From positions 69,516,392-69,580,391 of the forward strand of contig CM059559.1 of assembly GCA_030386875.1 (NCBI GenBank): DNA of 64,000 nucleotides, written 5' to 3'. Source of the stretch: Morinoia aosen. Lineage: Eukaryota; Arthropoda; Malacostraca; Amphipoda; Talitridae. Of this stretch, positions 15,401 through 43,012 are shown in pieces. Numbering within the stretch: the first letter of the stretch is position 1; every line of letters begins with the position of its first letter. The translations under genes were made by a program, and so were the position numbers. Below the pieces are notes generated by a model. The model saw nothing but the letters and a program-made list of their open reading frames with translations, did not search any database and was not told the origin of the DNA.

Positions 15401-16271
15401 CCTGTAAAGATTTTGTCAACAGTGCATTTAGATCATCAACTGAAAGATTCATTATCTGACTTGTATGGATTTGTGATAGTTTTTCTCTGAATCCAACCCA
15501 GTTTGCATTTTTAATAATCCATCTACAGAGATGGTTTTCAGATTTTTGTATTACAGTACCAAAAGTACATTCAATGGGATAATGGTCACTCCCAAGGTCT
15601 GCACCTCTCTGAAGAGACCCACAAGCAAGGAGAGTTGGAGGGACAATGCACAAGTCTAATGTGGAACTTGTCCCTACTCGAGCGTCTATGTAAGTGGGTA
15701 AGTTGGGAGGGTTGAGTATTCCGAGAGAGTTCTCATCTAGAAGTTTACAGAGATTCTTTCCCGAAGCATTCAGTCGGCCTTTAAAGTCCCACAAAGGCGC
15801 ATGAGCATTCACATCACCAATGAATATAAACAAATCACTCATCTGAACATAATAATGATAAAATTCTTCATAAGTAATACATGCATTAGGATTGTAAATA
15901 TTACATATATCAATATAACCAAAGGAACAGAACACTTTAATTGATGCAATCTCTAATCTACCATTTAAATAACTATCTATATTATTCACAGAAAAATTAA
16001 TATCATTTCTAATAATGAAACATAATCCACCTTTGGCTCCATCATTCCTATGGGACCACACACACTCATAGCCTAAAAATTTAGGCTCCTTAGTTTTGAT
16101 AAATGTCTCACATAAACACAGTACATCAGGTTTCTTAGTATATAGATAGAGTTTCACTTCTGACAATTTAGAAGATAGACCATTACAATTTAGTTGATAA
16201 ACAAGAAGATTTTTTTCCAAAGCACCACTTCTTTTGGTTTTCTGATCACAGATTTTAAAGTTACGCATCAT
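12486..16271 (-). CDS. Non-LTR retrotransposon ORF2: endonuclease, reverse transcriptase, RNase H
   Basis: The 1,261-residue polyprotein carries out target-primed reverse transcription. Residues about 24-235 are an APE-type endonuclease (QLNCNGL, ETF, GDVNAHAPLWD, SDHYPIE). The reverse transcriptase core follows at about 470-740, with GYRPITLLSCFSK, DLENAYDIVW, GLPQGAVLSPLLFN and the catalytic AYADD near residue 682. RNase H begins about residue 970 (FTDGSK, GAELFAI, DSKCS, WIPAHSG...NEIAD). A terminal CCHC zinc knuckle (CPECG...HFLLSC) lies near 1185. Its ATG overlaps the ORF1 stop as ATGA, suggesting coupled re-initiation. No stop or frameshift is present and all catalytic motifs are intact. 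The family assignment is firm; activity is inferred. Confidence 0.95.
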   Translation of the reverse strand: MMRNFKICDQKTKRSGALEKNLLVYQLNCNGLSSKLSEVKLYLYTKKPDVLCLCETFIKTKEPKFLGYECVWSHRNDGAKGGLCFIIRNDINFSVNNIDSYLNGRLEIASIKVFCSFGYIDICNIYNPNACITYEEFYHYYVQMSDLFIFIGDVNAHAPLWDFKGRLNASGKNLCKLLDENSLGILNPPNLPTYIDARVGTSSTLDLCIVPPTLLACGSLQRGADLGSDHYPIECTFGTVIQKSENHLCRWIIKNANWVGFREKLSQIHTSQIMNLSVDDLNALLTKSLQDAANKYIPKSSPAWGARRRTPWWDRECALAVAQRRKARNKLSKYPTAENLHLYKACETKAKEIIKQKKIKSWTSYVSTLDSNTGVGNVWRLIRSMRGSYVNPRPTVGDIADSTADKAQLLLAHFCRHEIKLGDEFSETIENTISNLAAVQVEDTYLNSQIELHEFQKSLKHAKNTSPGFDEVPYAFFTKAPYSFLEHVIYLFNKSYSSGYFPEAWKLGIICPIKKPKRDHSIPSGYRPITLLSCFSKIMEQIVKRRLDYFLEKNKVFSCYQTGFRRKRSTYDALALIKNCISQAFFKKAYCLIVYIDLENAYDIVWHAGLLHKLINIGCDIRMVLWLRSYLSNRCVKVRVADAVSSGKILACGLPQGAVLSPLLFNVMLHDLPQMESIQCIAYADDVTIVASGRSPIEIQRTMQNYLNCLTKWLKKWKLAINVDKTKYQIFTHKKYVPLINLRLNSKPINKTDEQRVLGITLDSPKLTFLPHIRSVKTECQRRLQVLRALSGVSWGSSQKLLRQVYISFIRSKLTYGHIIFTKLPESSMKLFGVIQNSALRSILGARKTSPVSSMEAEAFIMPLRLYLDFLFLKWCLRCSFSDAEPNEFPAKIELFRSPPKSELALKRVEIMSKIQFNFFPPGSQIEYFTSPCIEISSNVCVEFPDVKSLSAAEVDHKFEEYVTSKFCNFYRIFTDGSKLQSGSASAAMYVPHLKICTSWLLNPGHSIVGAELFAILQAVNYTVDNLSNHNVVIFVDSKCSLDIILNLTNPTYEIFSKKIQKMVVQSNNKIQLQWIPAHSGIMGNEIADRCAKMGHQNSKSVLTYLSYEEQVSQLKSKMLDYWSECWGNQVRGSGKGRFMYELCSRPKFRLGDAMPRKFQCIISRFRIGHVGVLSHLSRFNLCQSPLCPECGVPETIEHFLLSCPQYEAARLHLCLPFVKFNLELNLKNVLGFGEYQSRVQFAILRSLVNFLGATNRCKLL

Positions 16272-18049
16272 TTCTTTCTTGGAATTGCTCCCAATCTTTT
16301 GTTTCCTTTAGCATGAGAAAGAGGAATTTTGGAGGGGGTTTTAGAATTTTTTTCCAAAACAGTCTCACCTTTATTTTGAGATTTTACATTACTATGATAT
16401 TCGCTGAGTAGCTGTGCTCCAATTTTTTGGCCAAGATGGTTTCTTATCATTCCCAACAGCAGAAGATTCCTCTCACGCTTGTTTTCATGGTTCAAGTTAG
16501 ATGAAAATGCTTCCATCATGAATTTACCCAGGCGGAAGAAGAAATCCTCAAACATAGTTTGTACCTGGGACTCAATTTTCTTCAGCACTACTTGTATTGG
16601 ATCTTCGTTGGTGACCATTGTTTCTTGCGAAGGCTGACGATCATTAAAATGAGAGGCTAGTACATTCTGCTTAGGCTGGTTGGGTTTGACCTGGGGAATC
16701 CTTCTTGGTATGTAGTAGGACCCTTGAGATTGGTGTACATCAGCTGGAACAGTCACTTGTTTTGGTTGTGTGGTTTTCAGAGATGCAGCATATGTTTTTT
16801 CATTAATCCTTGATTCTGGAATTTGCATTTTTTCTTGCGTAGGGGCAGTTTTTTCCTTGGTCCATTGATTCAGTTGAGAACTTGGCTCATTGTAGGTGGT
16901 TTTGGCTCTTTGCGAGATAGATTCTAGACTATCTGTGGTCTCATATATGATTTGCCTTCGAGCCTCTGAAAAGGAGACGCCTTCTTTCATCAGTGTTTGT
17001 ATTTGAACAGCATTTTGAATATATGGGCATTCTCTAGAGCTGGCCACATGATTTCCCTTGCAGTTAGCACAGAAGGGAGTGGGGGCACTACACTTGTCTT
17101 TTGAATGGCCTCCACCACAGATAAGGCACCTTTCAACAGATGTACACCCAGTAGCAAAATGTCCATGACGTTGGCATTTATAACATCGGATAGGTGGAGG
17201 TGAATACGGATTGACCTTGAAATTCATGTATTCTATTTTAAGTTGTTTTGGGAGATCACTGCCTTGAAATTGTACTTTTACACTGAGGGAATCCTCTTTT
17301 TTTCCATTAGAGAATTTTGGCAGTCTGACCATGTTGATAACTTTGGCATTTTCACAGCTGGCAATTGGGATAAGCTCATTTAAATTTACATCATAGTCAA
17401 TTGGTCTAATAACCCCAAAGGTAGATTGTGAGGATTCTGAGCGTGGTTTATAGCAACTAACTGCAAATTTTCCAACGCTGTTAATTTTCAACAGTCTTGT
17501 TATTTCTTCTTCGGTAGTCTCTTTGAATTCAACTGCAATCAGGTTTCGTCGTTTGTTCACTCTTACCTCTTTAATGTAGTCATAGTTCAGTATTTGTTTC
17601 AGTCCTTGAGCCAGTCCAAATGGGTCATAGGTCATTTTTTTCTTGTTTGCTCCAAGTAATTCATTGCTTGACTCCTGTAGTTGAGTGATCAGCAAGGTAC
17701 ACATTTTCTGTTTGGATGCCATTGTTTTATTAGTTGGGTAAATCTTTTTTGGTTCAAGTGGAGACTGAGTAGTTTTACGCGTCTTTTTTGATGTGTCACA
17801 ATCGGAGTTTGAGCTTGAGAGGCTTACACTGGTTCTTTCTCTTTTTTTTGATGGGATGTTCTCCTTGAACCAAGTCCCTTGTATTACAGATTCATTAATT
17901 TCTTCAGTACTCATTGTTTTCTCTTCGTCGGTTTGCTCTTCTTCACTGGCAGGATTGGCGGCTAGCAACAGCTCTTCTTCGATTTCAGAGCAGGGATCTT
18001 CTGACTCTCTCAAATCACTAAACCGATTTGCCAATGGCAGTTCGGCCAT
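16268..18049 (-). CDS. Non-LTR retrotransposon ORF1: gag-like nucleic-acid-binding protein
   Basis: The ORF1 product packages element RNA. The start chosen is the first ATG, at 18049 (protein begins MAELPLANRF), giving 593 residues; the frame is open further upstream, but only through a non-ATG codon at 18106. An acidic, Ser-rich N-terminus is followed by a folded RRM-like region and then three CCHC-type knuckles at about residues 288-345: CYKCQRHGHFATGC, CLICGGGHSKDKC and CANCKGNHVASSREC. The C-terminal third is Gln/Lys/Pro-rich. The TGA stop (16268-16270) overlaps the ORF2 ATG. Gag identity rests on the knuckle triplet and its position before ORF2. The frame is intact. Confidence 0.9.
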   Translation of the reverse strand: MAELPLANRFSDLRESEDPCSEIEEELLLAANPASEEEQTDEEKTMSTEEINESVIQGTWFKENIPSKKRERTSVSLSSSNSDCDTSKKTRKTTQSPLEPKKIYPTNKTMASKQKMCTLLITQLQESSNELLGANKKKMTYDPFGLAQGLKQILNYDYIKEVRVNKRRNLIAVEFKETTEEEITRLLKINSVGKFAVSCYKPRSESSQSTFGVIRPIDYDVNLNELIPIASCENAKVINMVRLPKFSNGKKEDSLSVKVQFQGSDLPKQLKIEYMNFKVNPYSPPPIRCYKCQRHGHFATGCTSVERCLICGGGHSKDKCSAPTPFCANCKGNHVASSRECPYIQNAVQIQTLMKEGVSFSEARRQIIYETTDSLESISQRAKTTYNEPSSQLNQWTKEKTAPTQEKMQIPESRINEKTYAASLKTTQPKQVTVPADVHQSQGSYYIPRRIPQVKPNQPKQNVLASHFNDRQPSQETMVTNEDPIQVVLKKIESQVQTMFEDFFFRLGKFMMEAFSSNLNHENKRERNLLLLGMIRNHLGQKIGAQLLSEYHSNVKSQNKGETVLEKNSKTPSKIPLSHAKGNKRLGAIPRKK

Positions 18050-18413
18050 TTCAGATTTTAAAGGTAGCCCCAGAAAGGGGCCACCAACACAGAGTATTAT
18101 AAACAATCAGCAGGGCAGAAGTAGAAATTATAAAAAAAGGTAAACAATTACAATATATATATATATATGATTACAGTATAACGTGGTCAGGGGGACGGTG
18201 AAGAATCCAAACAATTAGTCACACCACCTTCCGCACCCCCTCCCACCCCAACCGAATTACCACACCACCTCAGATGGAGAGGAGAGAGCCGGTTGCGCGT
18301 GGAATGGAAAATAATGAATGTTACTAGGATTAATTTTGGAATTACTTTTATCTTTTCACAGGAGCTTGGCACGATACAGTCTTATCTCAACGAACGCAAC
18401 TGTCTCTCTCCCT
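18050..18413 (-). promoter_or_regulatory. 5' UTR of element 1, likely internal promoter region
   Basis: This 364-base leader lies between the 5' TSD and the ORF1 ATG. Non-LTR elements of this type usually start transcription from an internal promoter at their first bases. The sense strand starts GGGAGAGAGACAGTTGCG. An (AT)9 microsatellite lies at 18152-18169. No specific core-promoter element was identified. Confidence 0.45.
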
Positions 18414-26303: not shown

Positions 26304-26316
26304 TTTATCCACGATA
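26304..26316. repeat. Target-site duplication of element 2, 3' side
   Basis: TTTATCCACGATA, identical to 33304-33316, abutting the simple-repeat tail. Confidence 0.85.
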
Positions 26317-26481
26317 ATAATAATAATAATAATAATGAGGGGTGTTGATATAGTCAACATTAAAGCACGGATGCGGGTCCTTTGTTGCTCCCCCCTACGC
26401 ATGTTGTCTGTGACCGAAAGCCCAATTCAACAGTTTATCATTAAAGGTAAGTCAATTGCCAAATAAAGTTGCTGAAAACAT
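26317..26481 (-). other. 3' UTR and (ATT)n tail of element 2
   Basis: A 165-base untranslated region between the ORF2 stop and the TSD, ending in about seven ATT units (sense strand). Unlike the Drosophila I factor, which ends in TAA repeats, the sense-strand repeat here is ATT. Confidence 0.65.
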
Positions 26482-29400
26482 TTAAATTAGGTCATAAGCG
26501 TCTATCACACGAAGATAGTTCATCAATTCTCTAACGTCTAATTGGCGTCCCAATACCGTCTCGACGGTAGGTCGTTGTAGCGTTCGGCAAGCCTTTATAC
26601 AATTTCTACTATTGGTGAGACTTTCACATTCTATGATTAGATGTTTGACTGTTAGTGTTGAGTTATTGCAAAGCTCGCATACTGGTGCGATATCGGGTAC
26701 TTCATTATTCATCAGGTAGCCATGTGTTAAGAGTGTATGTCCTATTCTGAGTCTGTTAACTATTATCTCCTCTTTACGTGATATTTTACCGAAGTCCAAC
26801 TCTATTCCTGGTGATGGTTGTATTTCCCTTAATTTGTCTCTGCAATTTTCCCACCTAGTTTTCCACTGGTTAATCACGGCTTGTCGAATTAATGGTTTCC
26901 AATCTGTGTAGCAAATTAGGATAAATTCTTCGTTTTTTTGGGTTGCGTTCTTGGCTGCAGTATCTGCAGCATCGTTATCGCCTATTCCGACATGAGAGGG
27001 GATCCAGCATATGTTGATGGCTTTGCCGCCTTTTTGTTTTTCGTGTATGTCGTGTTGTATTCGGCGTAGTACTGGATGGTATGTCTCGTACTTTAGGCTG
27101 TTAACGACACTCAAGGAGTCGCAGTAAATTACGAATTTCTTATCTCTTTTTTCATTAATGATGCCAAGGGCCAAGTGGATGGCGTGTATTTCGGCTGAGT
27201 ATATTGAGGCCTCTTTCGGTAGCGTTGCAGAGCGGACAATGGTGCCACATACTGCTGCCGCTCCTGTGCCATTTTCTCCTTTTGAGCCGTCTGTGTATAT
27301 AGTTACATATCCGTCATATTTTTCTTTTGTCATTCTTTTAAACTCTTGACGGATTATGTATTCACGGGTTTCGTTTTTTGGTAGTTCGGTGAGGTCGGTA
27401 TTTATTGTTGGTTTTGTTAGTGCCCATGTGGGAGTATTAATGTTTAGTAGTCGGTATGAAAAGTCTGGTTTAACTCGATTTTTCCGGAGGCCAAATTTTT
27501 CTATCAATATTTGCATTTTAATAGCGAATGTTGGAGTTATTTTCCTATTTTGGAAGAGTAGTCGGTTACTCGGCGTCACAGTGTAATTGAAGGCGGGGTT
27601 TCCATGTTGACTTCGGATTTTGTAGTAATAACAGAGGGATAGATAGTTTCGCCTAATATCGGGAGGCATTTCATTGCAAATAATGTGTAGACTATTTGTT
27701 GGGCTGGATTTGAATGCTCCTGTAGCGATTCGAAGTGCTTCGGATGTAATAGACTCGATGGGCTTTAGAGTTGTTTGGCTGGCAGAGTTATAGATTATTG
27801 ATCCATAATCGAGGATTGATCTTGTAATGCTTCGATAGATTTTGAGGATCGTGGTTTGGTCTGCTCCCCAGCTTTGAGCTGTTATTGATTTTAATAAGTT
27901 CAGGCTATCATTCCCTTTTTTCTTTAAAGCAGTGATGTGTTGTTGCCAGTTCAATTTTTCATCGAAAATCAGGCCGAGGAATTTATGTGAGTTTGTGTAT
28001 TGAATGTTTTCATCATTGAGTTTAAGTATTGGGCTGAGGAAGAGTCCGGGTATGGTATTGAAATGTATTGCTTTGCTTTTACTGGATGAGAATTTGAAGC
28101 CATGATTTTGGGACCACTTAAATATTTTATTAATACAGGATTGCATTTTGTCTTGGATAACCTTGAGGTCTTGGTGGTGGTATCCAACTTGTAAGTCGTC
28201 AACGTATAGTGAGTGGTGGAATTTGTTGTCCGGTGGGATCTGCTTGGCTATGTCGTTTATTTTGAGGGCGAATAACGTGACCGAGAGGACACTGCCTTGA
28301 GGGACTCCGTTTCGCTGTTCGTAAATATTTGAGCTATAGTTGTCTATTCGGACACTTAGTGTTCTACGTTCTAGGAATTTGGCGACAAAAGTTGGTAATC
28401 TGCCCCTGAGTCCAATATCGAATAAATCCCGTATGATCCCATATCTCCATGTTCTGTCGTAAGCTTTTTCAAGGTCGAAGAACACTGAGATGAAGTGTTC
28501 TCTGTTTGCGAATGCTAATCTTATGGTTGAGTCTAGTCTGACCAAATGATCTGTAGTTCTACGCCCCTTTCTGCATCCACACTGCTCTTTACTAATTATA
28601 TTGTGCATATCTAAGTATTCGATCAGTCGATTATTGATCATTCGTTCCATTAATTTGCACAGACAGCTAGTGAGTGCGATGGGTCTGTAGTTATTTGGTT
28701 TACTATGGTCTTTCCCGGGTTTTGGGATTGGTATTATTATCGAGTGCTGCCATTGTGGTGGGAAGTAGCCCGTTGTCCAGAATTTGTTAAAAGTGTTCAA
28801 GATGTATTGTTTAGCTGGTAGTTTTAGGTGTTTGATCATGTCGTATGTTATTTTGTCGTTTCCTGGTGATGTGTTTTTAGTTTTTCTTAGGGCGGATTCA
28901 AATTCATGCATATGGAAAGTTTGGTTATAGATTTCTACGTTTGGCGAACTGAAATGGATCGGTATAGTTTCATTTGCGGTTTTTATTTGTTGAAATTCAG
29001 GGGAATAGCTTTGATCGCTTGACACTTCGCTGAAATTCTCAGCCAGTTTATTCACAATATCAGGGATTGTGCTGTAGTGTATATTGTTTTCGATTAATAT
29101 ATGGACTTTTCTTTGTACTCGACCTTTTATTTTCCTTATTGTTTCGTACACTCTGGCCATTGGTGTATATTTATTAAGTTGGTTTACGAAATTCTTCCAC
29201 GTTTCCTGTTTGCTTGCTCGAATTTTGTATTTATGATTTGCCCTTGCTCGTTTCCAGTTAATTAAGTTAGTAAGATTTTTATTGCGGTGGTATTTCTTGT
29301 AAAGTTTTTCTCTTTCTTCTTTTGATTCTTGGAGTTCTTTTGTCCACCATGGTTTGGGGTAGTATTTTCCTGGTATATAAGTTGGGATGGCTTTTTCAGC

Positions 29401-30210
29401 TGCTGAGTAGAACCGCTGGTATAAGTCGGTGAGTAGTTGTTCGTTATTTGTTGTTGTGTTCAACATCGGCTTGTTCCATGCATTGTTATTGGAATATAGA
29501 TCCCAGTTAGCTTTTGAGTAGTTCCAGATAGTTGATGGGGGTTGGTTGGGACGATTTTCGTTAAGGTAGGTGATCAAAATTGGGCAATGATCGCTATCAC
29601 CCGGCGAGTCGAAAGCAACCCAGTCTAGTAGCACGGCCAATGTAGGTGAGCAAATTGTCAGATCAATAGCTGATTCTGAATTGTATCCTATTCTAGTGGG
29701 TGAACCGGTATTTAATAGGCAAAGGTTATTGTTTGTAATAACAGTTTCTATCAGCTTCCCCCTATTATCTGTATTCTTGCAGCCCCATATGGTGCTGTGT
29801 CCGTTGAAGTCGCCGGCTAGGATGAAAGGATTCGGTAGTTGGTGGATTAGGTTATTTAGTTTTTCGTTTGTGACTGTTTGTCTACCGGGTATGTAGATGC
29901 TGCAGATGGTTATCAGCTGTCCTATGTTTACTTGAATGGCCACGCTTTGTAGTTCAGTCTGTAGATTCAGTTCACAAAAAGGTATTGAGCTATGGACATA
30001 TATTCCAACACCTCCATGGGGGGTTCTGTTGTAATGACCGTGTCGTAGCACATCACTGTAGCCGTTTATTCTGAACTGGCAGTTATCCCATAGCTTTGTT
30101 TCTTGAAGTGCTATTATACTGGGTTGGTGGTTGTTTATTTTTTCCATTAGTTCATCTTTCTTTCCCCTGATGCCTTGGAAGTTCCACTGCAGGATTCCTA
30201 CGTTAGCCAT
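26482..30210 (-). CDS. Non-LTR retrotransposon ORF2 with YVDD reverse transcriptase and RNase H
   Basis: The 1,242-residue protein begins MANVGILQWNFQGI, the first motif of an APE-type endonuclease (also QETK, GDFNGHSTIWG, SDHCPI; residues 1-225). The reverse transcriptase follows at about 470-720, with NYRPIALTSCLCK, DLEKAYDRTW, GVPQGSVLSVTLF and catalytic YVDD near residue 668. RNase H spans about 968-1095 (YTDGSKG, SAEIHAIHLAL, CDSLS, WIPSHVGI...DAAD). A C-terminal CCHC knuckle (CELCN...HLIIEC) lies near 1175. The ATG is in normal context 43 bases after the ORF1 stop. No disabling mutation is seen. Product and role are certain by family; current activity is inferred. Confidence 0.95.
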   Translation of the reverse strand: MANVGILQWNFQGIRGKKDELMEKINNHQPSIIALQETKLWDNCQFRINGYSDVLRHGHYNRTPHGGVGIYVHSSIPFCELNLQTELQSVAIQVNIGQLITICSIYIPGRQTVTNEKLNNLIHQLPNPFILAGDFNGHSTIWGCKNTDNRGKLIETVITNNNLCLLNTGSPTRIGYNSESAIDLTICSPTLAVLLDWVAFDSPGDSDHCPILITYLNENRPNQPPSTIWNYSKANWDLYSNNNAWNKPMLNTTTNNEQLLTDLYQRFYSAAEKAIPTYIPGKYYPKPWWTKELQESKEEREKLYKKYHRNKNLTNLINWKRARANHKYKIRASKQETWKNFVNQLNKYTPMARVYETIRKIKGRVQRKVHILIENNIHYSTIPDIVNKLAENFSEVSSDQSYSPEFQQIKTANETIPIHFSSPNVEIYNQTFHMHEFESALRKTKNTSPGNDKITYDMIKHLKLPAKQYILNTFNKFWTTGYFPPQWQHSIIIPIPKPGKDHSKPNNYRPIALTSCLCKLMERMINNRLIEYLDMHNIISKEQCGCRKGRRTTDHLVRLDSTIRLAFANREHFISVFFDLEKAYDRTWRYGIIRDLFDIGLRGRLPTFVAKFLERRTLSVRIDNYSSNIYEQRNGVPQGSVLSVTLFALKINDIAKQIPPDNKFHHSLYVDDLQVGYHHQDLKVIQDKMQSCINKIFKWSQNHGFKFSSSKSKAIHFNTIPGLFLSPILKLNDENIQYTNSHKFLGLIFDEKLNWQQHITALKKKGNDSLNLLKSITAQSWGADQTTILKIYRSITRSILDYGSIIYNSASQTTLKPIESITSEALRIATGAFKSSPTNSLHIICNEMPPDIRRNYLSLCYYYKIRSQHGNPAFNYTVTPSNRLLFQNRKITPTFAIKMQILIEKFGLRKNRVKPDFSYRLLNINTPTWALTKPTINTDLTELPKNETREYIIRQEFKRMTKEKYDGYVTIYTDGSKGENGTGAAAVCGTIVRSATLPKEASIYSAEIHAIHLALGIINEKRDKKFVIYCDSLSVVNSLKYETYHPVLRRIQHDIHEKQKGGKAINICWIPSHVGIGDNDAADTAAKNATQKNEEFILICYTDWKPLIRQAVINQWKTRWENCRDKLREIQPSPGIELDFGKISRKEEIIVNRLRIGHTLLTHGYLMNNEVPDIAPVCELCNNSTLTVKHLIIECESLTNSRNCIKACRTLQRPTVETVLGRQLDVRELMNYLRVIDAYDLI

Positions 30211-30253: not shown

Positions 30254-32797
30254 TTACTTTCTTTTGGGTGATCTATCTCTAATCCTAGAGTCTCGACAGT
30301 AGTATGATTGTTCCTCATCTGAGTAAATTTGTCGTTTATCATGTCTGTTGCGGCTGTAGGTGGGGGATCGTGATTTTGATCGTGATCTTGGTCGCTTCTT
30401 GTTTTGGGTTTTGGGAGGTTTGTGCTGCTTTGGGGGTTTGAATTCGTTGAATATTCGTCTGGCTTCTTGTCTCATAATAGGGTTGCATTCGCTCGTGCCA
30501 TCTTCCTCATTTTCAGATCCTTCGGCTGTAGTTTCAATATTAATTGTGGATTTGAGCAATTGTGTTGGGTTGGGTTTAATGCGGAGTATTTCTTTTTCGC
30601 ATGTTTCGTGGTCGCGTTGTGAAGTTTGCGGTGGTTTGGTTTCTGGTGTATCGGTTGTGTTATCAGTTGTACCTGGTTCGTTACAAAGTGGGGGAGCCAT
30701 ATTTTGTTCGGTGATCGTTTGGTTTTTGGTTGCCGCCATAAAGGGTTGGGGGGTTGGTACTTTGGGTATTTGATCCGTTCGATTTCTGGTTATTTGTGCG
30801 TAGCTTTGATCGAGTTGTGGGGATCGTTTGTGGTATATTATAAGGGCTTGTTCTCTTGATACGTTTTGTTTAGTACGGATAGAAATTAGTTCTTGTTGCT
30901 TGCGTTGTTCCGGGCAAGTCCGGTCTCCAGTTTTGTGATCGTTTCCGCAGTGGTAGCATGTCAAGTTGTTTTCAGTGCAATTTGTTGCTTCATGGCCTTT
31001 TGTTGCGCATTTTCCACACACGAACTCTTCACTGATACATCTTTTAGCAGTATGGTTGTATTCCAAGCACTTTTTACACATCATAGGGCGGTCGAAGTAT
31101 TCATATATCCTACTCTTGCAGTCTTGGCCAAGGATGTCGATATACTCAGGGGGGGTTGAGCCTCTGAAAGTTAGAAGTATTGCTTTTGCATTTGTGTTAC
31201 GGCTTTTTATCCAATTTGCTGGTTCAACATTTTTGATTATATGGTTTTCCATTAAACCTTGTTTGAATTTCTCGAAGTTGGTGAAGTCGTAGTTATAGAT
31301 GTAGGCGAGTCCTTTTGAAAGATTTACATAGTTATTTTCTGTTACTTGCACAGGGATGTTGTTTATGTCTTTGATTTTCTGTATTTCATCTTTTTGTCGT
31401 GTGTGATCTAATTCTACAATAAATGTGTTTTTGCCACCCGATCGAATAGATTTGGGTTTTCCTTGGATTTGGTTTGCAATACAGTTTTCTAGGAGCCATG
31501 GAGTAATTTTCCGCTTTTCGTTTTCCTGCATTGTTATATTGAAATGAGTTGTGGGGGTGTTCGTATCTGATATTGGTATCTCGGAGTGTCCTGTGACTAT
31601 CTGTACAGCACGACGCCTATTAACTCGTTGTTCTTGTTGGACTTTGCATATTTCTGTTTCCATGATATGTTTCGGGCATTCTCTGTGGCCAGTTTCATGT
31701 TGACGCTTGCAATGCATGCAGGAGAGGGCGCTGCCACAGTGTTCGCTGTCATGGCCTGTTTCTCCGCAGCGTTTACAGTTTGCTTCGTTATGGCAGTGTT
31801 TGGCTGTGTGGCCGTAGTTTTGGCATTTGTGGCAGATCATTGGTCTATTAATAAATGGGTATACTATCGTATCTGATTTTTCGCCTGGGATATATATAGA
31901 GTCTGGTGTTGTGTAGCTATTAAAGGTTAGTAGGAGTGGGGTGGTTTGGGAGAATCGAGTTTTAATGAAGCTGGCACGGACAGCGTCACTGATATTGTAC
32001 TGGCTTTTCAGGCCTTCCACAAAATCTTCCATATTATCTACATCGTATTCTTGAATATATATTAGTCCTTTGGATTGATTGTAGTATGGGTGTTCGCTGA
32101 TCTGGCAATTAATGCCGTCGACGTTAGTAAGTCTGGTGATGCGCTCAGATTGGGGTTTGTTTCGAGTTTCTATGATAAAGCTATCTTTACCTGAATAAGT
32201 TATTCTTTTCGCCTTCAAACCAGTTATTTTGACTATTTCTTCTTGGAGGCAAAATGGATTTATTTGGTTTCTCTCTTCGATTTTGAATTTGACCGAGAAG
32301 AACTTTGTATAATGGTCGTTCTTCGTCATTTCTTGGTTCAACGATATGGGTGTGTATTTGTTAGCTTTGCTTTGTTTTCTCACATTTTCCTTCTCGCAGC
32401 CCATGATTTTACTGTTTTTTCCTATGTTCTCCGCTTTCGTCATTTCTAGGATTTTTTCGAGTGTATTTTCGATTTTCCTTATTCGATCGTCTACATTTTG
32501 TGCTTCTTTTTCAACTTCATGTTTATCGGGGTTGATGCATTTGGTTGCATCACCTGCCGCAAGTCTATTCAGCACTTCATTTAATTTAGCCTCCAATTGG
32601 TCCACCTTACAGGTAGCACCGTTTGGTTCCGGTGGAGTTTTTTCGGTTGTTTGGTCAGATGTGTCATTGTTTTCGCTTATCTTCCTGGTGATAGTGTTAG
32701 TTTTGGTGTTTGTTGCACCTACGTTGGTAGCAGTGCTTAGGTTGTTTTTGTAAGAGTTTATTCGTTGTTTTAATTTGTTTTTATTTTTGGCGTACAT
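30254..32797 (-). CDS. Non-LTR retrotransposon ORF1 with an internally duplicated gag module
   Basis: The 847-residue nucleic-acid-binding protein starts at an ATG (MYAKNKNK). An N-terminal coiled-coil-like region (about 64-120) precedes two homologous modules. Module A (about 164-402) carries knuckles at 322-335, 341-354 and 360-374; module B (about 415-655) carries knuckles at 574-587, 594-607 and 614-628. Shared landmarks at a constant offset of about 252 residues are SKGL-YI, LLTF, the F-RPM-C-KC entry to the first knuckle, HTAK-C, and a C-P--R/Q Arg/Gln-rich exit. The C-terminus is Pro/Thr-rich and then ends in an Arg/Ser-rich tail (RPRSRSKSRSPTYSR). Related ORF1 proteins usually carry one module; element 1 in this window has only one. 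The frame is intact. Confidence 0.92.
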   Translation of the reverse strand: MYAKNKNKLKQRINSYKNNLSTATNVGATNTKTNTITRKISENNDTSDQTTEKTPPEPNGATCKVDQLEAKLNEVLNRLAAGDATKCINPDKHEVEKEAQNVDDRIRKIENTLEKILEMTKAENIGKNSKIMGCEKENVRKQSKANKYTPISLNQEMTKNDHYTKFFSVKFKIEERNQINPFCLQEEIVKITGLKAKRITYSGKDSFIIETRNKPQSERITRLTNVDGINCQISEHPYYNQSKGLIYIQEYDVDNMEDFVEGLKSQYNISDAVRASFIKTRFSQTTPLLLTFNSYTTPDSIYIPGEKSDTIVYPFINRPMICHKCQNYGHTAKHCHNEANCKRCGETGHDSEHCGSALSCMHCKRQHETGHRECPKHIMETEICKVQQEQRVNRRRAVQIVTGHSEIPISDTNTPTTHFNITMQENEKRKITPWLLENCIANQIQGKPKSIRSGGKNTFIVELDHTRQKDEIQKIKDINNIPVQVTENNYVNLSKGLAYIYNYDFTNFEKFKQGLMENHIIKNVEPANWIKSRNTNAKAILLTFRGSTPPEYIDILGQDCKSRIYEYFDRPMMCKKCLEYNHTAKRCISEEFVCGKCATKGHEATNCTENNLTCYHCGNDHKTGDRTCPEQRKQQELISIRTKQNVSREQALIIYHKRSPQLDQSYAQITRNRTDQIPKVPTPQPFMAATKNQTITEQNMAPPLCNEPGTTDNTTDTPETKPPQTSQRDHETCEKEILRIKPNPTQLLKSTINIETTAEGSENEEDGTSECNPIMRQEARRIFNEFKPPKQHKPPKTQNKKRPRSRSKSRSPTYSRNRHDKRQIYSDEEQSYYCRDSRIRDRSPKRK

Positions 32798-33303
32798 ACT
32801 CCCGGCTTCAGAGGGGGTTTCCCCGCCTCGAAGTCGGGGTTTGAGGTATTCGCTGATTGTTGCCAGAAGTGCTCAAAGTTTTACTTTGGGATCCAAAGTA
32901 GTAATCCAAAATGGACTATTGGTCTGCGTAACTTAAGTCTATTCTTATAGGTTATTTAAGGGCCCTGGAGTATAGGGCAAATTAAAGAGAAAATAACTAC
33001 GCAAATGAGACCCAAGCTCTGAAGAGCTCGGGCCGCCGCCCGACTTTGTTCTACCCAACAACGGGGATTTGGAAAAAAACCTAAAATCTTAATCCCTCGA
33101 AAGAAAACTCAAAAGATAGAGGAAAGAGCAGTTGGGTATTTCAACGGTACCACCACGAGAAGGTGCCGGGTCAGCTGGATACCTGCTCGTGAGTAGGTAT
33201 TCCTGTATCAATCCTTGTCTACGACTTCTTTCCCTTCACCAAGCTCAATAATTCAATAATTTGGTACCAGTAAAAACTTGGTAAAGGGAACAGCGAAAAT
33301 TCC
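32798..33303 (-). promoter_or_regulatory. 5' UTR of element 2, likely internal promoter
   Basis: This leader of about 506 bases lies between the TSD and the ORF1 ATG. It contains GC-rich hairpins, including CGGGC-CGCC-GCCCG near 33030 and CCCCG...CGGGG near 32823-32841, which could structure the RNA leader. Family knowledge suggests an internal promoter at the 5' end; no motif is diagnostic. Confidence 0.45.
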
Positions 33304-33337: not shown

Positions 33338-33350
33338 GAACATTCAAATT
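33338..33350. repeat. Target-site duplication of the Penelope-like element, left
   Basis: GAACATTCAAATT, identical to 38595-38607. Confidence 0.75.
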
Positions 33351-33609
33351 TTAAAAAGAACAACTCTAGAGTAAAAATATGAGCAAGCTAAGTAAAAAAC
33401 GACGTTTCGACCTTCTACTGTGGTCATCAAAAAGGTATATCTCTGCAAAAACAAAAGACAATTCATACTAAACATGAACGTACAAAGTCTTTGAGTATCT
33501 TAGACTAAATAATTGTAAACAAAAATCAAAACCACAGTAGAAGATCGAAACGTCGTTTTTTACTTAGCGTGTTCATATATTTACTTTAGAGTTGTTCTTT
33601 TTTAAATTT
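33351..33609. repeat. Left pseudo-LTR of the Penelope-like element: inverted copy plus direct copy
   Basis: Positions 33346-33424 and 33531-33609 are inverted repeats of about 79 bp with few mismatches. The spacer 33425-33530 is the reverse complement of about 38450-38555 near the element's 3' end. The motif GTCGAAACGTCG appears directly at about 33543-33555 and inverted at about 33399-33411. Confidence 0.75.
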
Positions 33610-36615: not shown

Positions 36616-38544
36616 ATCATCAGCGACTGAAGACCGCGCTGTTAAATGGCAGACTTGCGCTACTCTGTGCTATACGTTTTTTTCTTAGGCATATATTTCA
36701 ATTGCGTCTTCGCTGAATGATAAAGAAACTCATATTGAGGAAACTCGTCCTTGACCGCAGCGTGGATTGCGGCGCCCTGTCACGCTGAGTGTCTGACACG
36801 CACTGAGCTCCATCTCCGTGTGTGTGCCCGACTGCCCGTATACCCTACAGCTACCGAAAATTGGCTTCACTTTAGAGCGCTGATGCCGCCTCCATTCTTA
36901 AACCTCCTTGACTACGCCCCATCATTAGCATGACTGGTACAGCCACCCATGAAGTGGCCCAGTGGATCAACGGAACTATCCGCCCATACATCAACCACAC
37001 TTACATGCTTTCCTCCAGCGACCTGCTGCTCATCGTTCTGGGCTCCCTAGAATAATCACCTACTGATAAATTTGACTCATTTGATGTAGAATTCCTGCTC
37101 ACTAACGTACCCGTTCGTGAAACTGTTGAAATAATTATGTCACCATCCATATCTGCCGCCCTCTAGCATTCCGCATGAAATATTCATATATCTGTTGACA
37201 ATTTGCACGAATGAGACGCCATTCCAGCACAATGGTCATACATTCATCCAAACCGGCGATGTGAGCATGGGATCTCCACTGGGGCCAACGTTCGCTGCCT
37301 TCTACATGTCACACCTGGAAGAAAACCTTCTTTGGCAACAAAAAAAATCAAACCCAAAATACTACAAGCGGTATGGGGACGACATTCTGGCAGTATTTTC
37401 AAGTGCTCATCACCTTCATTGTTTCAAAAGAAGAATGCTCAGCAATTCGGTTCTGCGGTTTACTCACGAGGAAATGGAAGAAAACCAGTTTCACTTCTTG
37501 GATATCCGCTTGGAACTAAAAGGAAAACAGTTTTCAACTTCTGTCTACGTGAAACCTACGGATAATGACTCATACACTCACTTCACTTCCCAGGTGCCTC
37601 TGTCTTATAAGAAATTAATTGCTAAGACTCTACTTCATCGCGCATTGAAATATTGCTCGACATGGGAGACATGCACGCAAGAAATCAACCACATTAAGCA
37701 AGTATTAACTAACAACGGTTTCCCCTTAATGGTCATAGATGAGATAGTGAAAACACTTTTAAATAGATACCATGGTTGTGGTCAGAATCGCCCAGCAGAA
37801 ACAGTTGACCTCTACGTCGAACTCCATAACCTCGGAACTTACAAAAAAGATGCAGATTTTCTCACGAATACAGTTATGCAACACACCTGTACAATAGATC
37901 CTTCTAAGAAAATTGTCGTCAGGCCGTATTTCAAGCCACGAAAACTAGTAACTTTTTTCACCACCAGACTTCGAGAACCGGATCTTCGGCACGCGGGCGT
38001 GGTCTACAAGATTACCTGCCTAGAGGATAGCTGTCAGGCTTCCTATGTAGGACACACCACCTGCACGCTGGAGAGAAGAGCAAAACAGCATCGTTATTCA
38101 TCCACCAACATCTTCCAACACTTCAGAGATGATCACCAAAAAGAACCCACAAACTTGGAACCATTTCTTCCAGCTTTCAGCACAATGCACACTTACTCTG
38201 ATACAGCATCAATAAAAATTGCAGAAGCCTTAAAATTAGAAAACATGCACCGATAATAAATGTTAGGTACAATGAATTTTCCAAGTACCTAAACTTGTTC
38301 ACATAGAAACGGAATGCTGAGCACAAGAGGTTACTTAAGGCATCGTCAAGAACTTACGCCGCCAGTCTCATGCCATGCTTCAACCACTGCACTTCTCCTC
38401 GTCTGCTCTGTTTATCAAACTAGCTTCCTAATTTTACCATGAACTACTGAAAGTTTTTGTTAACAATTATTTAGTCTAAGATACTCAAAGACTTTGTACG
38501 TTTATGTTTAGTAAGAATTGTCTTTCGTTTTTGCAGAGATATAC

Positions 38545-41911: not shown

Positions 41912-43012
41912 TCGGGGACGGTCCAAGCCAGTGATGGGGGAGGGGTGGGAGCGGGGAGTCGAGGACGGTTCGAGCCAGTGATGGGGGAGGGGTGGGAGCG
42001 GGGAGTCGAGGACGGTCCGAGCCAGTGATGGGGGAGGGGTGGGAGCGGGGAGTCGAGGACGGTCCGAGCCAGTGATGGGGGAGGGGTGGGAGCGGGGAGT
42101 CGAGGACGGTCCGAGCCAGTGATGGGGGAGGGGTGGGAGCGGGGAGTCGAGGACGGTCCGAGCCAGTGATGGGGGAGGGGTGGGAGCGGGGAGTCGAGGA
42201 CGGTCCGAGCCAGTGATGGGGGAGGGGTGGGAGCGGGGAGTCGAGGACGGTCCGAGCCAGTGATGGGGGAGGGGTGGGAGCGGGGAGTCGAGGACGGTCC
42301 GAGCCAGTGATGGGGGAGGGGTGGGAGCGGGGAGTCGAGGACGGTCCGAGCCAGTGATGGGGGAGGGGTGGGAGCGGGGAGTCGAGGACGGTCCGAGCCA
42401 GTGATGGGGGAGGGGTGGGAGCGGGGAGTCGAGGACGGTCCGAGCCAGTGATGGGGGAGGGGGGGAGCGGGGAGTCGCGGACGGTCCGAGCCGGTGATGG
42501 GGGGGGGGGGGTTCGGGAGTCGCGGATGGTCCGAGCCGGTGATGGGGGGGGAGGGTTCGGGGAGTTGCGGACCGTCTAGCCGTTTATGAGAGGGGGAGTT
42601 CGGGGAGTTGCGGACGGTCCGAGCCGGTGATAGGGGGGGGGGGGGGTTCGGTTAGTCGCGGACGGTCAGAGCCGGTGATGGAGTGCGGGTGAGGGGGCGG
42701 GGAGTAGCGGACGGTCAGAGCCGGTGATGGAGTGCGGGTGAGGGGGCGGGGAGTAGCGGACGGTCAGAGCCGGTGATGGAGTGCGGGTGAGGGGGCGGGG
42801 AGTAGCGGACGGTCCGAGCTGGTGATGGAGTGCGGGTGAGGAGGCGGGGAGTCGCGGACGGTCCGAGCTGGTGATGGAGTGCGGGTGAGGGGGCGGGGAG
42901 TCGCGGACGGTTCGAGCCGGTGATGGAGTGCGGGTGAGGGGGCGGGGAGTCGCGGACGGTTCGAGCCGGTGATGGGGGAGGGGGCGCGGGTAGTCGCGGA
43001 CGGTCCGAGCTG
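41912..43012 (+). repeat. G-rich minisatellite with 47-bp and 49-bp units
   Basis: Eleven nearly identical 47-bp units run 41933-42449, each containing GATGGGGGAGGGGTGGGAGC then GGGGAGTCGAGGACGG. A diverged middle (42450-42676) follows, then about six 49-bp units (42677-42970) with GATGGAGTGCGGGTGAGGG and GCGGGGAG. The plus strand is strongly G-rich, and each 47-bp unit contains four G-runs separated by 1-3 bases, a textbook G-quadruplex pattern. The proline-rich minus-strand frame at 42715-43029 is a product of the repeat. Confidence 0.97.

Follow-up and report, generated by a model that had tools for sequence, protein, structure and literature searches.

A 64,000-nucleotide stretch of the genome of the amphipod Morinoia aosen (assembly GCA_030386875.1, contig CM059559.1, positions 69,516,392 to 69,580,391; hereafter the window) contains a complete long interspersed nuclear element (LINE) whose first open reading frame (ORF1) encodes the full module of a type I ORF1 protein twice in tandem. 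The element occupies 33303-26316 on the minus strand, is intact and is bounded on both sides by an exact 12-bp target-site duplication (Table 1). A preliminary description of this DNA had placed an 847-residue ORF1 at 30254..32797; position and length stand, with the correction that the frame lies on the minus strand. With its full length, target-site duplication, intact frames and many near-identical dispersed copies, the element has the features of an autonomous target-primed retrotransposon, and the near-identical copies elsewhere in the genome indicate that the insertion is young. Our preferred reading, held with modest confidence, is that the ancestor of a clade of such LINEs duplicated a complete module in frame, once, and that the two modules act as a joined pair of non-equivalent units.

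Homology between the modules spans their whole length. By BLASTP, residues 160-404 and 410-656 share 84 of 239 positions (35%) with 2 gaps (E 7e-53), and the part preceding the knuckles is alone recognizably homologous (50/152 identical, 33%, gapless, E 1e-28). Scores of 420 for the whole module and 230 for the core compare with maxima of 67 and 65, respectively, in 1000 shuffles. The alignment extends beyond the knuckles into a pair of helices; taken by itself, the post-knuckle tail lacks significance (score 33, maximum of 43 in 1000 shuffles). The preliminary description had proposed an end-to-end repeat of the gag module (residues 164-402 and 415-655) with landmarks at a constant offset near 252, and had named a lack of homology outside the knuckles as grounds for rejecting it. 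Both the repeat and the offset are borne out, as the knuckles start at residues 322, 341 and 360 in module 1 and at 574, 594 and 614 in module 2 (offsets of 252-254), and the pre-knuckle homology is real. Its description of the modules as well diverged and of the duplication as old also holds: among four-fold codons shared between the modules, the third position is identical in 8 of 25, so that synonymous change looks saturated, and the duplication predates the split of the families described below.

Each module is predicted to follow the same order, namely a zone of paired RNA recognition motifs (RRMs), three CCHC knuckles and two helices. The AlphaFold2 (AF2) model of module 1, which was compared with PDB structures, is reasonable and contains two RRMs; hence, the "RRM-like region" of the preliminary description becomes two RRMs in that model, while its three knuckles per module are retained. 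The corresponding model of module 2 is weak, its second RRM being more convincing than its first. Together, the module 1 model and the knuckles of that module (spaced CX2CX4HX4C twice, then CX2CX3HX6C) indicate one or more RRMs directly followed by CCHC knuckles, the arrangement that defines a type I ORF1 protein (ORF1p). No Pfam domain was found in ORF1 above the cut-off, a sequence search of solved structures returned weak knuckle matches only, and no Gag capsid family was among the Pfam matches of P0001 to E 1 (long terminal repeats were not specifically searched for).

The genome that contains the window (29 contigs, 2.0 Gb) was searched for further copies and relatives. These searches score best candidates only, and the counts given here are accordingly lower bounds with intactness overstated. 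Doubled ORF1s occur in family A (the window element), family B (L054, L061), family C (L056, L064), family D (L055, L062) and relatives of D (L066, L067). All 53 scored matches of family A, the window copy included, cover residues 1-847 at 99-100% identity, and 51 are without internal stops; 29 other copies differ from that of the window at 9-19 of 2544 nt. For family B, 57/57 scored matches cover both modules (minimum 21-790 of the 790-residue query; 51 without stops). The family D query gave 58 rows, comprising 32 full-length matches (24 without stops), 13 that span residues 33-829 or more at 63-64% identity (12 of these free of stops) and 13 partial ones. Families B and C are close (69-74% identity in the modules), and other pairs among A to D are about 38-43% identical.

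We also sampled 29 stretches upstream of reverse transcriptase (RT) or endonuclease matches or at ORF1 matches, and redid the count of one versus two modules over whole stretches in all six frames. This gave 8 doubled, 17 single and 4 without a module-like match (L044, L047, L051 and L065), figures that reflect search-steered sampling rather than genome-wide proportions. Stretches derived from RVT_1 contained single modules or none, and the search with the endonuclease family led to the doubled relatives. Among those counted, some are interrupted in frame (L040, L042, L045, L048, L056, L061 and L063) or have lost a knuckle motif (L060, L061 and L064). The doubled ORF1 belongs to a whole clade of families and not to one element. 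No confirmed relative came from a viral contig collection searched with P0001, A1 and A2 or from a genome contig collection searched with A2, an absence that says little given that their records are viral and prokaryotic.

Module trees, in which most families were represented by one row, show that the duplication happened once, before families A, B, C and D diverged. With 20 modules included, the second modules all fall in a single clade (96/96), and the modules of doubled families as a whole group together against the sampled single-module families (92/96); first modules are grouped in the best tree without support (48/6). Forcing the two modules of the window element to pair was rejected (p-AU 9.8e-5). 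Since the second modules form one clade and this pairing is rejected, a single duplication preceded the families. A 16-module tree likewise rejected within-family pairing for the window element (p 1.3e-4) and family D (p 8e-5). Identities follow the same pattern: modules at the same position in different families are 38-74% identical (38-43% without the close pair B-C), compared with 31-37% for different positions and 32-34% for the two modules within one family. A tree of the endonuclease, which comes from a different gene (ORF2), also unites the doubled families (95/96). In that tree, long branches were flagged as meeting in joins that involve the window side and the row of a neighbouring LINE (element 1), so the value overstates the support.

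Both modules have been retained and are under purifying selection. None of the 24 zinc ligands varies among five representatives (families A, B and D and both relatives of D), in agreement with the earlier suggestion that both copies kept their ligands. The six knuckle motifs are present in 30/30 family A copies; in family C, L056 matches all six, and L064, a decayed copy, has lost ligands in two. Across these 30 of the 53 family A copies, the ratio of nonsynonymous to synonymous polymorphism (pN/pS) was 0.13 in module 1 (Fisher p 9e-6), 0.22 in module 2 (p 0.001), 0.29 in the N-terminal region (p 0.002) and 0.44 in the C-terminal region (p 0.07). Each module type has columns conserved in that type alone, but only two columns are fixed yet different between the types (F277/W529 and R396/Q650).

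Type I ORF1 proteins are considered to bind the RNA of their element and to package it, a role described for RRMs and knuckles (PMC4120745 and PMC3905857). By analogy with other type I LINEs, ORF1p would coat the RNA of this element. Following the in-frame duplication of the whole type I module (RRM pair, three CCHC knuckles and helix pair) once in the clade ancestor, the two modules would form a covalently joined, non-equivalent pair, which would give every chain two units for RNA binding. A single protein could then engage two sites on RNA, or bind RNA together with target DNA or the ORF2 protein (ORF2p), modules 1 and 2 being specialised and not interchangeable. Possible consequences include two RNA-binding specificities or altered particle assembly. 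Tentatively, and with somewhat less assurance than for the preferred reading as a whole, we suggest that ORF1p is equivalent to a fused heterodimer in which the halves split the work (e.g., one packaging the element RNA in cis, the other contacting ORF2p, target DNA or a further site on RNA), both being necessary and the arrangement giving these families an edge in copying.

The main rival to such specialisation, which we regard as rather unlikely, concerns valency only: the modules would be equivalent, and module 2 would simply double the RNA-binding capacity or mimic a dimer. The order of elements and the ligands are the same in both modules, the two columns named above are the only fixed differences between module types, and conservation between families is alike (38-74% in module 1, 38-69% in module 2), all of which speaks for this rival. 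However, equivalent copies that exchanged freely would become alike, so the low identity of the modules within a family counts against it, as do the greater likeness of same-position modules between families and the rejection of within-family pairing for A and D.

Other rivals concern the origin of the tandem. That two knuckle arrays resemble each other by chance or composition has practically no probability left; CCHC arrays are frequent in retroelements, but the RRM part aligns without a gap over 152 residues and the arrangement recurs across several families, so the module alignment rules this candidate out. It is also improbable, in our judgment, that module 2 was captured from the ORF1 of a related element by recombination or template switching instead of arising by internal duplication. 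Although the modules are merely 35% identical and ORF1 exchange between LINE lineages has been proposed (PMC4120745), the modules of doubled families group against the sampled single-module families, none of which sits with just one module type in the best tree. A comparably low probability attaches to the reading that the ancestor of single-module L057 was doubled and that one module was later lost, which would make the duplication older than we place it. L057 is the nearest sampled single-module family for ORF1, and in endonuclease identity to P0002 (38.7%) it is like doubled family D (39.3%). The best module tree nonetheless sets L057 outside all doubled modules (92/96), and the endonuclease tree sets it outside the doubled clade. 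Because its branch is long and its placement with module 1 or module 2 was not rejected (p-AU 0.057 and 0.061 with 20 modules; 0.19 and 0.14 in a further test), module loss in this family retains that small share of probability.

Compared with known systems, the element resembles I-group LINEs in that its ORF2 combines an APE endonuclease with RT and RNase H, and in a 3' end of short A/T repeats next to a target-site duplication. We assign it to the I group provisionally, on the RNase H domain of ORF2. The usual I-group ORF1 carries one module, as do element 1 and 17/29 sampled stretches, whereas that of the window element carries two. CCHC knuckles are also shared with the nucleocapsid (NC) of HIV-1, although sequence matches to it are weak (E 0.056 and worse); HIV-1 NC is not known to contain an RRM, has two knuckles and belongs to a different mode of replication, in contrast to the six knuckles plus RRMs found here. 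Another close counterpart is subtype IB, defined as two RRMs and three CCHC knuckles among the type I ORF1s of Jockey-lineage LINEs (Metcalfe and Casane 2014, PMC4120745, a survey of the Jockey superfamily). Each module has the same order as subtype IB, paired RRMs followed directly by three knuckles, and those elements likewise have two ORFs, with endonuclease and RT in ORF2. No entry in that paper's table, as far as available, goes beyond two RRMs plus three CCHCs, whereas the window ORF1 has two complete sets and six knuckles; it thus departs from the tabulated IB composition while remaining type I. As each module is the standard set, the novelty lies in the doubling. The preliminary description had asked whether relatives share the duplication and whether it was already described: several families of the same genome share it, and no description of a doubled type I ORF1 was found in searches of an open-access library, which did not cover Repbase, where prior cataloguing is possible. 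ORF1 is the less understood of the two LINE ORFs (PMC4120745), and how type I ORF1 packs RNA is little understood; a tandem kept through several family splits offers a direct test. It also points to the duplication of entire modules, besides domain shuffling, as a way in which LINE ORF1 evolves.

Table 1. Features of the doubled-module LINE, in window coordinates
Feature	Position	Strand	Basis
5' target-site duplication ATCGTGGATAAA	33304..33315	.	read in sequence, recurs at 3' end
5' untranslated region (UTR), 506 nt, begins GGAATTTTC	32798..33303	-	similar 5' end in copies
ORF1, 847 aa, doubled type I module	30254..32797	-	translation and module alignment
N-terminal region, residues 1-159	32321..32797	-	translation, inference
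Module 1, residues 160-404	31586..32320	-	alignment and model
Two predicted RRMs, module 1, residues ~164-237 and ~243-316	31850..32308	-	
Three zinc knuckles, module 1, residues 322-374	31676..31834	-	alignment, motifs
Module 2, residues 410-656	30830..31570	-	alignment and model
RRM region, module 2, residues ~415-570	31088..31555	-	weak model; homology to module 1
Three zinc knuckles, module 2, residues 574-628	30914..31078	-	alignment, motifs
C-terminal tail, residues 657-847	30257..30829	-	translation
ORF2, 1242 aa, endonuclease, RT and RNase H	26482..30210	-	Pfam
3' UTR, terminal (ATT)n	26316..26481	-	read in sequence
3' target-site duplication ATCGTGGATAAA	26304..26315	.	read in sequence

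Outside the modules, the N-terminal region of ORF1 includes a putative coiled-coil-like stretch at about residues 100-118, judged by eye. The C-terminal tail has a net charge of +11 and terminates in Arg/Ser-rich stretches; this end resembles the tail of SR proteins, and a similar Arg-rich end occurs in family D and two relatives. ORF2 matches PF14529, PF03372, PF00078 and PF00075 above the cut-off. A similar 5' end lies 503-508 nt upstream of ORF1 in 26/30 family A copies, with 25 distinct flanks. In two copies (L024 and L035), ungapped similarity to the window copy extends upstream of ORF1 for only about 110 nt and 195 nt, respectively, possibly through 5' truncation or internal deletion. 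Another two (L012 and L013), on different contigs, have an identical 5' flank, which could reflect either a segmental duplication or insertion into a repeat. An inverted repeat at 33346-33609, immediately beyond the 5' target-site duplication and upstream of the element, has 79-nt arms that are 92% complementary.

The window holds several further features. ORF1 of element 1 (16268-18106, minus strand) has one module, confirming the single module noted earlier for this neighbour; a genome search with this ORF1 gave 75 rows. Its stop and the start of ORF2 overlap by four bases (16268-16271), which suggests coupled re-initiation. A near-identical copy of this ORF1 (100% after rounding) exists elsewhere, so element 1 is also young. 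On the plus strand, an ORF at 37195-38256 has a weak RT match below the cut-off followed by a stretch that looks, by eye, like a GIY-YIG endonuclease, an arrangement that we take to be that of Penelope-like elements. Finally, a GC-rich unit of 47 bp is repeated about 23 times in an array at 41912-43010; the G+C content of the window as a whole is 38%.
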